A DNA stretch of 64,000 nucleotides from the NCBI GenBank assembly GCA_014377305.1, contig JACMPW010000015.1, positions 62,001 through 126,000 on the forward strand, in the 5' to 3' direction. Every line of letters begins with the position of its first letter. Position 1 is the stretch's first letter. A model generated the notes under the pieces. The model saw only the letters and a program-made list of their open reading frames with translations. It had not been told where the DNA came from and made no database searches. Shown piece after piece: positions 49,744 to 57,506 of this stretch. The position numbers were made by a program, and so were the translations under genes. Source of the stretch: Candidatus Altimarinota bacterium. GTDB taxonomy: Bacteria > Patescibacteriota > Gracilibacteria > BD1-5 > UBA2023.

Positions 49744-49772
49744 AAAAGGCCTCGTATGATACGAAGCCTTTT
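49744..49772. terminator. Bidirectional terminator
   Basis: Stem AAAAGGC-TCGTAT / ATACGA-GCCTTTT with one mismatch. It ends the MFS gene on the plus strand and the structured RNA gene on the minus strand, where a TTTTCTCTTTTTT tract follows. Confidence 0.85.
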
Positions 49773-49782
49773 AATATTTGGT

Positions 49783-49964
49783 GGAAAATGATACTACCCG
49801 TCAGGGTCAGTATTTCAACGACGGCTCCATGGATACTTGCGTACCTTATCTTTGTTCGGACGTTGACACCCAAACAAATCATTCTTGATACGATACTAAT
49901 AATCTACTATCAAGCACTTCAAAGCCTCCTGCCTATCCTACACAAACTGAATAGATCATTTTCC
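49783..49964 (-). ncRNA. Stand-alone structured RNA with 23S rRNA L1-stalk core
   Basis: 182 nt on the minus strand. The ends pair over 10 bp (GGAAAATGAT with ATCATTTTCC, next to an encoded ACCA), and TCAGT pairs with ACTGA inside. Within lie four blocks conserved in bacterial 23S rRNA helices 76-78, the L1 stalk: TGTGTAGGATAGG, GGAGGCTTTGAAG, CATGGAGCCG, TTGAAATAC, in the right order. The part between the second and third block, short in E. coli, is enlarged to about 95 nt with hairpins CTTGATA/TATCAAG and TTGTTTGG/CCGAACAA. A TTGACA-N16-TATGAT promoter would start transcription at the first base of the closing helix, and a terminator follows, so this looks like a dedicated gene and not a random fragment. 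Function unknown; ribosomal protein L1 binding is a natural guess. Confidence 0.7.
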
Positions 49965-49970
49965 GGTTGA

Positions 49971-49998
49971 ATCATATGAGATATCTCTCTCTTGTCAA
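49971..49998 (-). promoter_or_regulatory. Promoter of the L1-stalk-like RNA
   Basis: On the minus strand: TTGACA (49998-49993), 16-bp spacer, TATGAT (49976-49971), then 6 nt to G49964, the first base of the closing helix. The -35 box begins 6 nt after the DedA stop. Confidence 0.8.
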
Positions 49999-52623: not shown

Positions 52624-52823
52624 ATATCACAAAAGCGATCGAGCGGCCATCACCCGCGAGCTAACAGCAGAAATGCCATAAGGCAAACTAGACCTGTTCG
52701 GAGTTGCAATACTCCGTCAAAAAATCTACAATCAAGTATCCGCTTTCGGTGGTACCTTCTTCCTTCACTCTTTGAGTTACAGAGGACCAAAAGCACACAT
52801 TTTATTTTGTGTGATTTTTTATT
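52624..52823 (+). promoter_or_regulatory. T-box leader with isoleucine (AUC) specifier
   Basis: A leader of about 200 nt ahead of the GIY-YIG gene and ileS. It has the T-box core GGTGGTACC (52748-52756), whose UGGU can pair with the ACCA end of uncharged tRNA. A short helix GCGG / CCGC (52643-52657) presents CCATCAC, with ATC (52649-52651), the Ile codon, as specifier. This resembles the ultrashort stem I of ileS T-boxes of Actinobacteria. AAAGCG near 52633 can pair with CGCTTT at 52741. A hairpin CACACA / TGTGTG (52794-52813) with a following T tract lies right before the next start codon, as expected for attenuation. Uncharged tRNA-Ile should raise ileS expression. Confidence 0.78.
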
Positions 52824-52825
52824 TT

Positions 52826-53734
52826 ATGCCATCAAGAACAATTCTTACACATCTTATCTCTTGAAATCCTGATTGAATCAGAATTGTAGAATTCACAACG
52901 CGACCCATTCAATGAGTTTCATTTCCTCGTAGCCTATTTAAAGAAGTAACTGAAAGAAGTGAACTCTCGAATGCTTGAGTTTATTTCTTATTCTGAGAAG
53001 ATGAAAATGAAAATATTCAGGTATATATAGGTCAAGCTTTGAATATAACGGAAAGATTAAAAAACCATCTAAGAAGTTTGGAAAAGAACTTTTGGACAAC
53101 AACGGTATGTTTTACGAAATGACAAACAAGGCTTAATAGTGCGCAAGTAAATTATCTAGAATCAAAATTAATAAAGAAAGTTAATGAAAGCTGAAGAGTT
53201 GATAAAGATAATATCTTAAATGGAAACGCATGAAATAGGGAGCCTCTTGATGAGTTTCAAATTGCTGATTTAGAAGAATTTTTAAGTGATTTAGAAATAC
53301 TTCTATGAACATTGGGACACTCTATCTTAAGTCCATATTTTCATAAAAATAATAGATGAGAAATTCTCAATAATGAAAATCAATCCGAAGTAATCTATTA
53401 TCTTAAGCGATGAAATTGTGAATGAAAAATGGTTTATATAAATGAGGGTTTTATTGTATTAAAAGATAGCATATGACAATCTATGCAAGCTTGCTGACTA
53501 AAAGATTGAATTTTGAAAAGACGAGAAAAACTTGAAAAAGACTGAGTGATAGAATTTCTTAATGATTGAAAGATTAAATTTCTAAAAGATCATCTTTTTA
53601 AAACCCCTTCATGATGATCAATTATACTTTCTGGTTCAGCCTCAAATTGATGGTGAGACTGGAAAGATTTAAATGAAAGATCCCTTTGAGAAAATGAAAA
53701 TTATTGGCAACAAACAATAAATTTAAATAACTAA
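52826..53734 (+). CDS. GIY-YIG nuclease with DUF4357-like C-terminus
   Basis: 302 residues. GIY-YIG core: GVYFLFGEDENENIQVYIGQALNITERLKNHL, so the two signature strands read GVY and YIG, and the catalytic Arg lies in ERLKNH. The last part (KTPSGGSIILSGSASNGWGDWKDLNE) matches DUF4357, a usual partner of such nucleases in GIY-YIG/DUF4357 proteins. Of 27 glycines 22 are TGA, against a small minority in ileS. The gene lies between the T-box leader and ileS, 10 nt before the ileS ATG. It probably arrived later and now uses the tRNA-responsive promoter. No methylase partner is adjacent, so defence or selfish mobility are both possible. Confidence 0.85.
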
Positions 53735-53744
53735 CTCTAATACC

Positions 53745-56700
53745 ATGTCTTTCCCACTCGTTTCCCCAAAACAATCATTCCCAGCTCTCGAATCCGAGGT
53801 TCTCGCCTACTGGAAAGCGAACAATACTTTTCAAAAGTCGATAGACTCTCGTCCAGATGATAATCCATATAGATTCTACGATGGTCCTCCTTTTATAACG
53901 GGGAAACCGCATTATGGATCACTTCTCTCATCGATTGTGAAAGATGTGGTAGGAAGATATTGGACGATGCGTGGTCGTCGGGTGGATCGTACCTGGGGAT
54001 GGGATTGTCATGGTCTCCCGATTGAGGAGAAGGTCCAGAAAAAGCTCTGACTCAAATCCAATAAGGCTATCGAAGAAAACGGAGTCAAGAAATTCATCGA
54101 TGAATGCTACAATTATACGAGTGAAGTCTCATCAGAGTGGAACTGGTATATCGACAAGATCGGTCGTTGGGTGGATATGGACAACGCATATCGCACGATG
54201 GATCAGGACTATATGGAGAGTGTGATATGGGTCTTCTCTGAGCTCTACAAGAAGTGACTCATCTACGAGGGCAAGCGAGTATCGCTCTACTCATGGAAAC
54301 TCGGAACTCCGATTTCCAACTTCGAGGTCGCGATGGATGACACCTATCAAGAGGTCAATGATCCTGCGATAACCGTGATGTTCGCACTTGAAGCAAATGA
54401 CAAATTCCCCGAATGAACAAGTATCCTTGCCTGGACAACTACTCCATGGACGATCCCTGCCAATATGGCACTCGCGGTGAGGAGTGATATCGACTATGCC
54501 CTCGTGGAGAATAGTGGAGAGCAATATATCATTGCTCGGAACAGACTCGAAACCGTATTCAAGGGAAAATGAGAATATAGCGTGATCCGAGAATTCAAAT
54601 GATCAGAGCTCGTCTGAATCGGCTATGTACCACCATTTCCAGAGTATTATTATCAGAAAAACGGAGACAAGAATCATCGGGTCTACCATGCAGACTTCAT
54701 CACTGATACTGATGGTACAGGTATCGGACATGAGGCTCCAGAATTCGGTGAGGTCGACTTCCAACTCGCGAAAAAAGAAGGCATCCACATCTCGAATGCT
54801 ATGGATGAAGCAGGCAGATATACGGCTGAGATCCACGATATGGAGTGAGTCCATTACCTGGATCTAGAGAATCCAGAAAATGGAGCGAACAAGATCAATA
54901 TCGAACGGATGCGAGCGAACAATACACTCTTTAAGCTAGAAGGAATTACGCATCGTGTTCCTTTTTGTCCACGATCTGGTACACCTCTGATGCAAAAGGC
55001 TCAGAAGTCATGGTTTATCGATATCCAGTCACAGAAAGACAAACTCATCAAAGCCAACGAACAGATCAACTGGTTCCCAGAATACCTCAAAGAGTGACGG
55101 TTCAAGAAAGGGATCGAGACTGCTCCAGACTGGTGCATCTCACGCACTCGCTACTGGGGAGCTCCGATGCCAGTATGGATAGGGGAGGATGGGGAGCAGC
55201 TGGTCGTATCTTCGCGAGAGGAGATATATGAAGCCAATAGGGCGTATGGGCAACTCGAGGCTCGAGATATAGATAGCAAGACGGTATACTACTTCAAATG
55301 AGGAGAATATGATGGAGTTGAGTTCAACCTCCACAAGCCATATATCGATGCGATCAAACTCAAGTCTCCAACTACAGGACAAGAGCTCACTCGTATTCCT
55401 GAGGTGCTCGATGTCTGGATGGACTCTGGTTCTATGCCATATGCTCAGATGCATTATCCGTTTGAAAACAAAGAAGCGATGCTCTCAAGCTTCCCAGCGG
55501 ACTTCATAGCTGAGTATGTCGGACAACTGCGGGCATGGTTCTATGTGATGCATGTACTCGGAGTACTCCTGAACCCGACCAATCAAGAGAAACCTACTCC
55601 AGCATTCACCAATGTGATCACTACAGGAGTCGTGAACGGGAACGATGGACGCAAGATGTCCAAGTCTTTTGGCAACTATCCTGATCCTCGTATGGCGATC
55701 GAGAAATACGGAGCAGATCCGATCAGGTTCTATATGTTGAATTCTCCACTACTCTCTGGTGGTGATATGGACTTCAAGGAGGAGGGGATCATGGAGACGA
55801 TCAAGGGCGTCATGCTCCCGATCTGGAATACATACAGCTTCTTCACGACCTATGCCAATATTGACAAGTGGGAACACGACGAGACGGAGGTATGGTTCTC
55901 TCGTCACGCAGAGAGCACCTCGAATGTAGCAAGCAAGATGAGCGACTGATCTGATGATCCACATATCACAGAAAAAGGGCGAGAACAAGGGAAGAATGCA
56001 GGGAAAGAACTCAAATCTCAAGGAAAGAATTTTGATGTGATCATCCATACAGACCGCATCCGTACCTATGATACAGCTCGTATCATAGCAGGGGAGATCG
56101 GATTCCAGGGTGAGTATATCATCGATGCTGGATTCGCTGAGCAGACAGCAGGGGAGTATGCGAACAAGACTCTTGCAGAGATCGCCGAGATGGGATGATT
56201 ACCAGCAGGTACATCTCATGTAGAGCTCCGCAAACTCTACAAAAATAACTCTAGCGAGAATATCGCACAATTCGAGGAGCGTATCCTCGCCACCTATGAG
56301 AATATCCTCACGAAATATGCAGGAAAACGAATCCTCATCATGGCTCACGCTGGGACATCTCGTCCGATCCTCCATAAATATATGGGAATGAGTCACGATC
56401 AGGCTCACTATGATACCAATATAGCAAACGCTCATCCATATCGTCTCATGACGACTCCACTCGTCAATCCTCTCGATCAGTGGATACTCTCGAAACTGCA
56501 GGTCCTCATCGCTCAGGTCCACGATGCGATGGAGGGATATGATGTCTCTCGTGGATGTCGTGCTATCGTCGACTATATGGACGAGCTCACGAACTGGTAT
56601 GTGCGTCTCTCTCGTCGCAGATTCTGGGAATCAGGGATGACCGATGACAAAAAATCAGCCTACGAAACTCTCTATACGGTACTCACGGAGGTATCGAAGC

Positions 56701-57506
56701 TCCTCGCTCCACTCATGCCGTTCCTCTCTGAGAATATATATCAGGGACTCACAGGTCGTGAATCAGTACATCTCGAATATATAACACTACCGAACAAGCA
56801 CCTAGTTGCGAATGATCTCAATAGAGATATGGATATCTGTGAGCACATTGTATCCCTCGGTCTCGCTCTGCGAAGTCGCAAAAATATCCGAGTCCGCCAA
56901 CCACTCGCATCCGTCACGATCACTCGTGAGCTCTCAGGATACTATCAACAGATCATCCGAGATGAGCTCAATGTGAAGGAAGTCAGATACGAGAATCCAG
57001 AGAATCTCGCGAAGAAAATCTGCAAACCAGATGCACGAAAGATCGGACCAAAATATGGAAAAGATGTACAAAAAGTCATCACTGAGGCAAAGAATGGGAG
57101 CTTCGTAGAAAAAGAAAATGGGATCATCGATGTTGGGGGATTCATCCTCGAACCTGGAGAATATGTCATGGAATATCTCCCACTCGAGGGGACTCTCGAT
57201 GTCGAGGGCGGATATGGTATGGTGGTCGCACTCGATACTACTATCACCGAAGATTTGAAATTCGAGGGATACGCTCGTGATATCATCCGCCTCATCCAGG
57301 ATATGCGAAAAGAGGCCGATTACCAAGTCACTGATCGAATATCGCTCTCGATCGCCTGAGAGGGAAGTGAGCAAATACTTTCACAATTCGGTGATATGAT
57401 CACCTCTGAGACTCTCTCGAATTTTTGAAATATTGAGACTCCTGATGTGGAGAAAAATGAAACCATCGATGAAAACATCGTCATCACACTATGAGTAGCG
57501 AGATAA
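53745..57506 (+). CDS. ileS: Isoleucyl-tRNA synthetase with inserted histidine-phosphatase domain
   Basis: 1253 residues, about 200 longer than usual, with 14 TGA-coded glycines. IleRS features: [19 protein letters not shown] (HIGH region reading HYGS), [10 protein letters not shown], the editing domain with [12 protein letters not shown] and [50 protein letters not shown], and the helical anticodon domain. Between the end of the catalytic core (YANIDKW) and the anticodon domain ([11 protein letters not shown]) lies an insert of about 170 residues: SRHAES (His721), [13 protein letters not shown], a Glu in FAEQTAGEY, and [11 protein letters not shown] (His868). These are the four active-site elements of the histidine phosphatase superfamily. 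The sequence is of the eukaryote-like IleS2 branch. Regulation by the upstream T-box is likely. Confidence 0.93.

Follow-up and report, generated by a model that had tools for sequence, protein, structure and literature searches.

A stand-alone RNA gene resembling the ribosomal L1-stalk head in a Candidatus Altimarinota genome and in uncultivated viral contigs

The window, the 64,000-nucleotide stretch of a Candidatus Altimarinota contig analysed here, carries on its minus strand a predicted RNA gene whose core copies the head of the L1 stalk in 23S rRNA, the ribosomal arm that helps spent tRNAs leave. Its structure is conserved, it has homologues elsewhere, and its site is empty in relatives. 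We propose, with a probability of about 0.6, that it belongs to a previously undescribed class of stand-alone ribosomal L1 stalks found in several phage groups, some of them in tRNA arrays, and in a few ultra-small bacteria, which would act in trans on uL1 or tRNA and so reprogramme translation. The window RNA is best read as a dedicated small non-coding RNA displaying a free-standing L1-stalk head on its own closing helix, with roughly even chances that it captures free uL1.

Results

The RNA and its match to 23S rRNA

Read along the minus strand from 49964 to 49783, the RNA contains the blocks GTGTAGGATAGG-CA-GGAGGCTTTGAAG, followed by CATGGAGCCG-TCG-TTGAAATAC. It is identical to E. coli 23S rRNA (rrlH) at 28 of 30 positions over 2109-2138 (E 4e-7) and at 20 of 22 over 2153-2174, with the blocks in the correct order. 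In E. coli numbering the core comprises both T-loop strands, H77 and the base of H78 (Table 1). The similarity to E. coli rRNA scores 44.1 bits, compared with at most 24.3 bits in 50 shuffles of the region, and is beyond chance because the shuffles score lower and a structured homologue occurs in a second genome. A sequence-only reading of this DNA had recognised four blocks conserved in H76-H78; their order and match hold for the T-loop strands and H77/H78, but the H76 sequence is not conserved.

The place of H76 is taken by a private closing helix of 14 bp. Only its first 10 bp had been noticed before, and a 1-nt bulge and 4 more bp complete it. The variable tip, described earlier as enlarged with its own hairpins, is the H78 tip, which three hairpins (P1-P3) replace. 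The ACCA that had been read after the closing helix is also there; this ACCA, and the equivalent GCCA (L002) in the homologue described below, resemble a tRNA 3' end and could reflect chance or a processed CCA end.

Table 1. Features of the stand-alone L1-stalk RNA and its locus (window coordinates, in the order of transcription).
Feature	Position	Strand	Remark
-35 element TTGACA	49993..49998	-	11/12 consensus letters, counted jointly with the -10 element
-10 element TATGAT	49971..49976	-	16-nt spacer; 6 nt before RNA 5' end
Whole stand-alone L1-stalk RNA	49783..49964	-	182 nt; 186 with ACCA
Closing helix, 5' strand (GGAAAATGAT CTAT)	49951..49964	-	At H76 position; covaries with G017
T-loop strand 1, GTGTAGGATA	49934..49943	-	E. 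coli 23S 2110-2119
H77, 5' strand GGCAG	49929..49933	-	H77 covaries over seven stand-alone stalks
H78 base, 5' side GAGGCTTTGAA	49918..49928	-	By comparison with E. coli 23S
Tip hairpin P1 (CTTGATA/TATCAAG)	49884..49914	-	One double change relative to G017, pairing kept
Tip hairpin P2, loop GGGTGTCAACGTCCG	49851..49878	-	
Tip hairpin P3 (GGTAC-GCAA-GTATC)	49832..49845	-	Three double changes relative to G017
H78 base, 3' side CATGGAGCC	49823..49831	-	E. coli 2153-2161
T-loop strand 2, TTGAAATAC	49810..49818	-	E. coli 2166-2174
H77, 3' strand CTGACC	49805..49810	-	One bulged A
Closing helix, 3' strand GTAG T ATCATTTTCC	49783..49797	-	Covaries with G017
ACCA	49779..49782	-	Directly 3' of closing helix; GCCA in G017
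Intrinsic terminator hairpin, then T tract	49744..49772	-	13 pairs

Promoter, terminator and neighbouring genes

The promoter and the T-tracted terminator claimed by the sequence-only reading were both located. The promoter is near-consensus and ends just upstream of the first closing base, a G. The terminator is probably an older one common to the neighbouring MFS and VTT genes, and G007, a genome of the same genus, has a terminator-like hairpin in the same place. The RNA lies mid-contig between intact genes. It shares its strand with the VTT-domain gene and lies 40 nt downstream of it; the MFS gene beyond is convergent, and no gene follows the RNA on its strand before the MFS gene.

In G007 the MFS and VTT (DedA-like) genes are likewise convergent, 83 and 78% identical to those of the window and separated by about 50 bp that hold no RNA; in G006 the MFS and VTT matches are 87 bp apart, also with no RNA. 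These empty sites imply that the RNA was gained in the window lineage or lost in its relatives, and it was probably acquired horizontally.

About 3 kb from the RNA is a GIY-YIG/DUF4357 nuclease-like ORF (52772-53734, plus strand). The next ORF (53745-57506, plus strand) encodes an isoleucyl-type class I tRNA synthetase (1253 aa, code 25); between its catalytic and anticodon-binding domains lies a histidine-phosphatase domain that is complete (PF00300, residues 716-899, E 8e-27).

A second bacterial copy and covariation

BLAST of 27 family genomes identified a stand-alone homologue on G017:C2, in another genus of the family, with 72% identity over 136 nt and no 23S flanks. It has other neighbours than the window RNA (ftsK is divergent) and a terminator hairpin of its own (-17.9 kcal/mol). 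Between the window genome (G000) and G017 every one of the 41 modelled pairs is preserved, with 12 double changes, 3 single-sided changes and none broken, the model having been derived from the very two sequences that were then compared; slid-partner controls gave 0-3 double changes. Because of this circularity RNAalifold was also run with no structure supplied, on an alignment from which a 26-nt 5' insertion of G017 had been trimmed. Its prediction again contains the closing helix, the H78 base and P1-P3, with 51 pairs, 14 of which have double changes. Covariation in the closing helix, which had been suggested as a check, is thus seen as compensatory changes between the two genomes, and the dedicated-gene reading survives the refuting condition set with it, a lack of such homologues in related genomes.

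In the P2 loop of G017, 16 nt match E. coli 23S 951-966, the H39 loop, without a difference (32.2 bits, compared with at most 26.3 in 50 shuffles), and the window copy differs from this version by several letters. That P2 is a second rRNA-like piece is suggestive only.

Distribution in bacteria and family 23S rRNA

The RNA is carried by 2 of the 27 family genomes (G000 and G017), and it is therefore dispensable. A covariance model (R1) searched against 77 order, 353 class and 380 phylum genomes recovered G000 (217 bits) and G017 (180 bits) only, the next-best matches, at 55 bits or less, being ordinary 23S stalks. With a further model built from short stalks (R2), nothing beyond G000 and G017 was found among the matches inspected in class and phylum genomes, the others being ordinary 23S stalks. 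Enlarged stalks were also sought by a pattern scan of GTDB, where 13 of 14 matches were due to chance and one was a 23S contig carrying a repeat around a gap. The bacterial stand-alone stalks number only two, which limits inference from them.

The 23S rRNA of the family has C2113-G2170 and a different H39 loop, and the window RNA has U-A, so the RNA does not stem from the 23S that the family has today. A full-length 23S gene with a normal L1 stalk in cis occurs in seven other family genomes, and rplA is present in the window genome on another contig. Loss or replacement of L1, an explanation offered by the sequence-only reading, or loss of its stalk, is not supported, given the presence of rplA and the complete stalks of relatives, the strain's own 23S being absent from its assembly. 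A trans piece of a split 23S is rejected for the relatives, whose 23S has its own stalk, with the same reservation for the window strain.

Two other 23S observations were made in these genomes. G017 has two 23S copies about 87% identical (G017:C4 122781-124784 and G017:C5 307-3266), either divergent operons or contamination. A second 23S in G053 (L041, G053:C2 949-1058) has the U2113-A2170 stalk type and the genome's other 23S has C-G, so contamination is possible.

Stand-alone stalks in viral contigs

Pattern scans of IMG/VR detected four groups of uncultivated viral contigs in which an L1 stalk stands alone, with no 23S sequence flanking it. The stalks of L098/L101 (105-kb contigs) and L099/L100/L104 (119, 70 and 42 kb) lie in arrays of 8-14 tRNAs; L105 (295 kb) has one tRNA nearby and L106 (49 kb) has none. 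With the Rfam LSU model, the stalk region alone was matched in L098, L099 and L106. The L106 contig encodes a terminase, L104 and the contig of L099 a T4-type RNA ligase/tail-fibre attachment protein, the latter contig also a DNA ligase and thymidylate synthase, and the L101 contig a CCA-adding enzyme and an RNA ligase; L098/L101 and L105 are called viral mainly on their IMG/VR assignment. With the homologue in G017 and its many compensatory changes, these viral copies bear out the central claim of the sequence-only reading, that this is a dedicated RNA gene on the L1 stalk and not decayed rRNA.

H77 takes the forms GGUGG/CCACC, GUGCG/CGCAC, AGCCG/CGGCU and GGCAG/CUG-CC among the viral and two bacterial RNAs. 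When seven stand-alone stalks were aligned, with the tip left out and the bulged A of the window copy aligned away, 96.4% of cells were paired compared with 77.6% after shuffling; four of the five H77 pairs showed double changes, and the covariation score was reached by none of 500 shuffles. The T-loop strands are almost invariant, with a U at 2112 in L105. The stalk of L099 follows an ORF and runs directly into a T tract. L104 (4975-5105) and L099 (2491-2559) are on related contigs and share the closing helix and terminator, but the H78 tip is much larger in L104, which implies that the tip was enlarged more than once.

Three further loci were left out of the counts: L095 (23S at a contig end), L103 (ordinary 23S) and L102 (ambiguous, contig end). 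L102 (10-79, minus strand), a stalk that shares 94% identity with that of E. coli, occupies the extreme end of a viral contig with a terminase and with no 23S upstream; it may belong to the class or mark an assembly junction. In L106 the stalk is within several hundred bases (about 3330-2700, minus strand) resembling a larger structured RNA, where Rfam matched the stalk plus one weak sub-threshold hit and nothing else. A 16S decoding-site-like piece in L105 was not significant. Scanning viral contigs for the tip motif gave chance matches only, cultured phages gave only rRNA-bearing records and no stand-alone stalk, and plasmids gave no stand-alone stalk match.

Class assignment

The LSU model (RF02541) has no match in the window at gathering score, nor at E 10 around the locus. 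Assignment to a 23S gene or fragment was rejected, as contiguous flanking 23S is absent at the window locus and flanking motifs are absent in L027/L028. No known family in Rfam 15 fits the window RNA, the mmgR/suhB match being mostly on the terminator and below cut-off; neither T-box leader nor RNase P RNA is matched at E 10 around the locus. A uL1 mRNA operator was rejected too, because the locus is not 5' of rplK or rplA. The window RNA and the viral stalks alike have both T-loop strands, H77, the H78 base, their own closing helix and no 23S flanks, and H77 carries compensatory changes among them. In the open-access literature no description of stand-alone stalk RNAs was found, subscription journals and preprints being outside the scope, and on that basis we rate the class as new.

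Discussion

In the ribosome, uL1 binds the stalk head, and G2112-A2169 of the head contacts the tRNA elbow (PMC5309774, PMC4810234, PMC10931766). A free copy of this head, of a kind also present in phage groups, may capture uL1 in trans, and from its sequence we give this function an even chance. Transcribed from its own promoter, the RNA, which retains the site sequence, would fold like the rRNA stalk head and bind free uL1. Holding uL1 in this way would lift repression of its own mRNA, keep it off nascent ribosomes, or both, and the variable tip hairpins may serve an extra partner or localisation. uL1 binds H76-H78 in a complex that is more stable with rRNA than with mRNA, and since the rRNA stalk binds uL1 tighter than does the mRNA operator, a free stalk could be a natural uL1 sponge (PMC10931766).

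The main rival to uL1 capture, and a strong one, is that the G2112-A2169 platform stacks on the elbow of deacylated or phage tRNAs and holds, protects or sequesters them. We judge this possible but clearly the less probable of the two. Elbow stacking by the double T-loop motif is established for the ribosomal E site, the T-box and RNase P (PMC5309774, PMC4810234), and the occurrence of two viral groups in tRNA arrays, one of them with a contig that encodes a CCA-adding enzyme and RNA ligase (L101), is consistent with it. Both T-loop strands are nearly invariant and the stems vary. The operators of uL1 in mRNAs are reduced versions without T-loop strand 1; because strand 1 (2110-2119) is near-invariant in the stand-alone stalks, a tRNA-elbow surface fits this pattern as well as uL1 binding or better. 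On the other side, stacking alone, without a ribosome, is probably weak, L105 has its U at the 2112 position, and no tRNA array is near the window locus, both tRNAs of the window being at least 12 kb away. Capture of uL1 and contact with the tRNA elbow could both be true at once.

It is improbable that the RNA is a trans rRNA fragment directed at the ribosome, docking on or assembling into the large subunit as an assembly aid, hibernation factor or replacement stalk. The complete head and the H39-like tip loop of G017 would suit such a part, but neither the H76 sequence nor the three-way junction at the base of H76 is copied, and the 23S of relatives is complete. More doubtful still is a cis-acting role as a uL1-responsive 3' or leader element controlling termination of a neighbouring transcript. 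The position of the RNA just behind the VTT-domain gene and the arrangement in L099 are in keeping with this, but the RNA has its own near-consensus promoter, the neighbours differ in G017, and no same-strand gene precedes the convergent MFS gene. A functionless decayed rRNA fragment or assembly chimera, to which the sparse distribution and the missing 23S of the strain might point, is very improbable and is already contradicted by the compensatory changes in every tip stem and in the closing helix, as well as by the second genomic homologue, a sequence type unlike the family 23S (U2113-A2170 against C-G, different H39), and a mid-contig site with intact neighbours that is empty in G007.

No rRNA functional domain existing as a free gene was found in the open-access literature searched. 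A stalk cut out of its ribosome lets it be tested directly whether such an RNA titrates uL1, holds tRNA or acts on ribosomes. For annotation pipelines, a short LSU match may be neither contamination nor a pseudogene. Ribosomal proteins encoded by phages are already known, and viral genes for the RNA half of a stalk would add to that picture.

Comparison with known systems

The closest relative is the bacterial 23S L1 stalk (H76-H78, within RF02541), which the window RNA resembles in its T-loop strands, H77 geometry, H78 base and near-identical blocks. It differs in being a separate predicted gene with promoter and terminator, in the replaced H76 sequence, in an H78 tip of three hairpins and in having no surrounding 23S sequence. 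The uL1 operator in the rplK-rplA (L11 operon) mRNA also mimics the rRNA site of uL1 outside rRNA, but the window RNA comprises the entire stalk head, T-loop strand 1 included, and is terminated with no gene following. T-box stem I and RNase P share the double (interdigitated) T-loop motif, a known tRNA-elbow platform; the window RNA, in contrast, lacks specifier, antiterminator and catalytic core and carries 23S sequence. Phage-encoded ribosomal proteins, such as the uL1 of phage PhiMa05 (PMC13157829), show that viruses likewise carry translation parts, including the L1-stalk protein, whereas the stand-alone stalks encode the RNA half of the stalk and not the protein.
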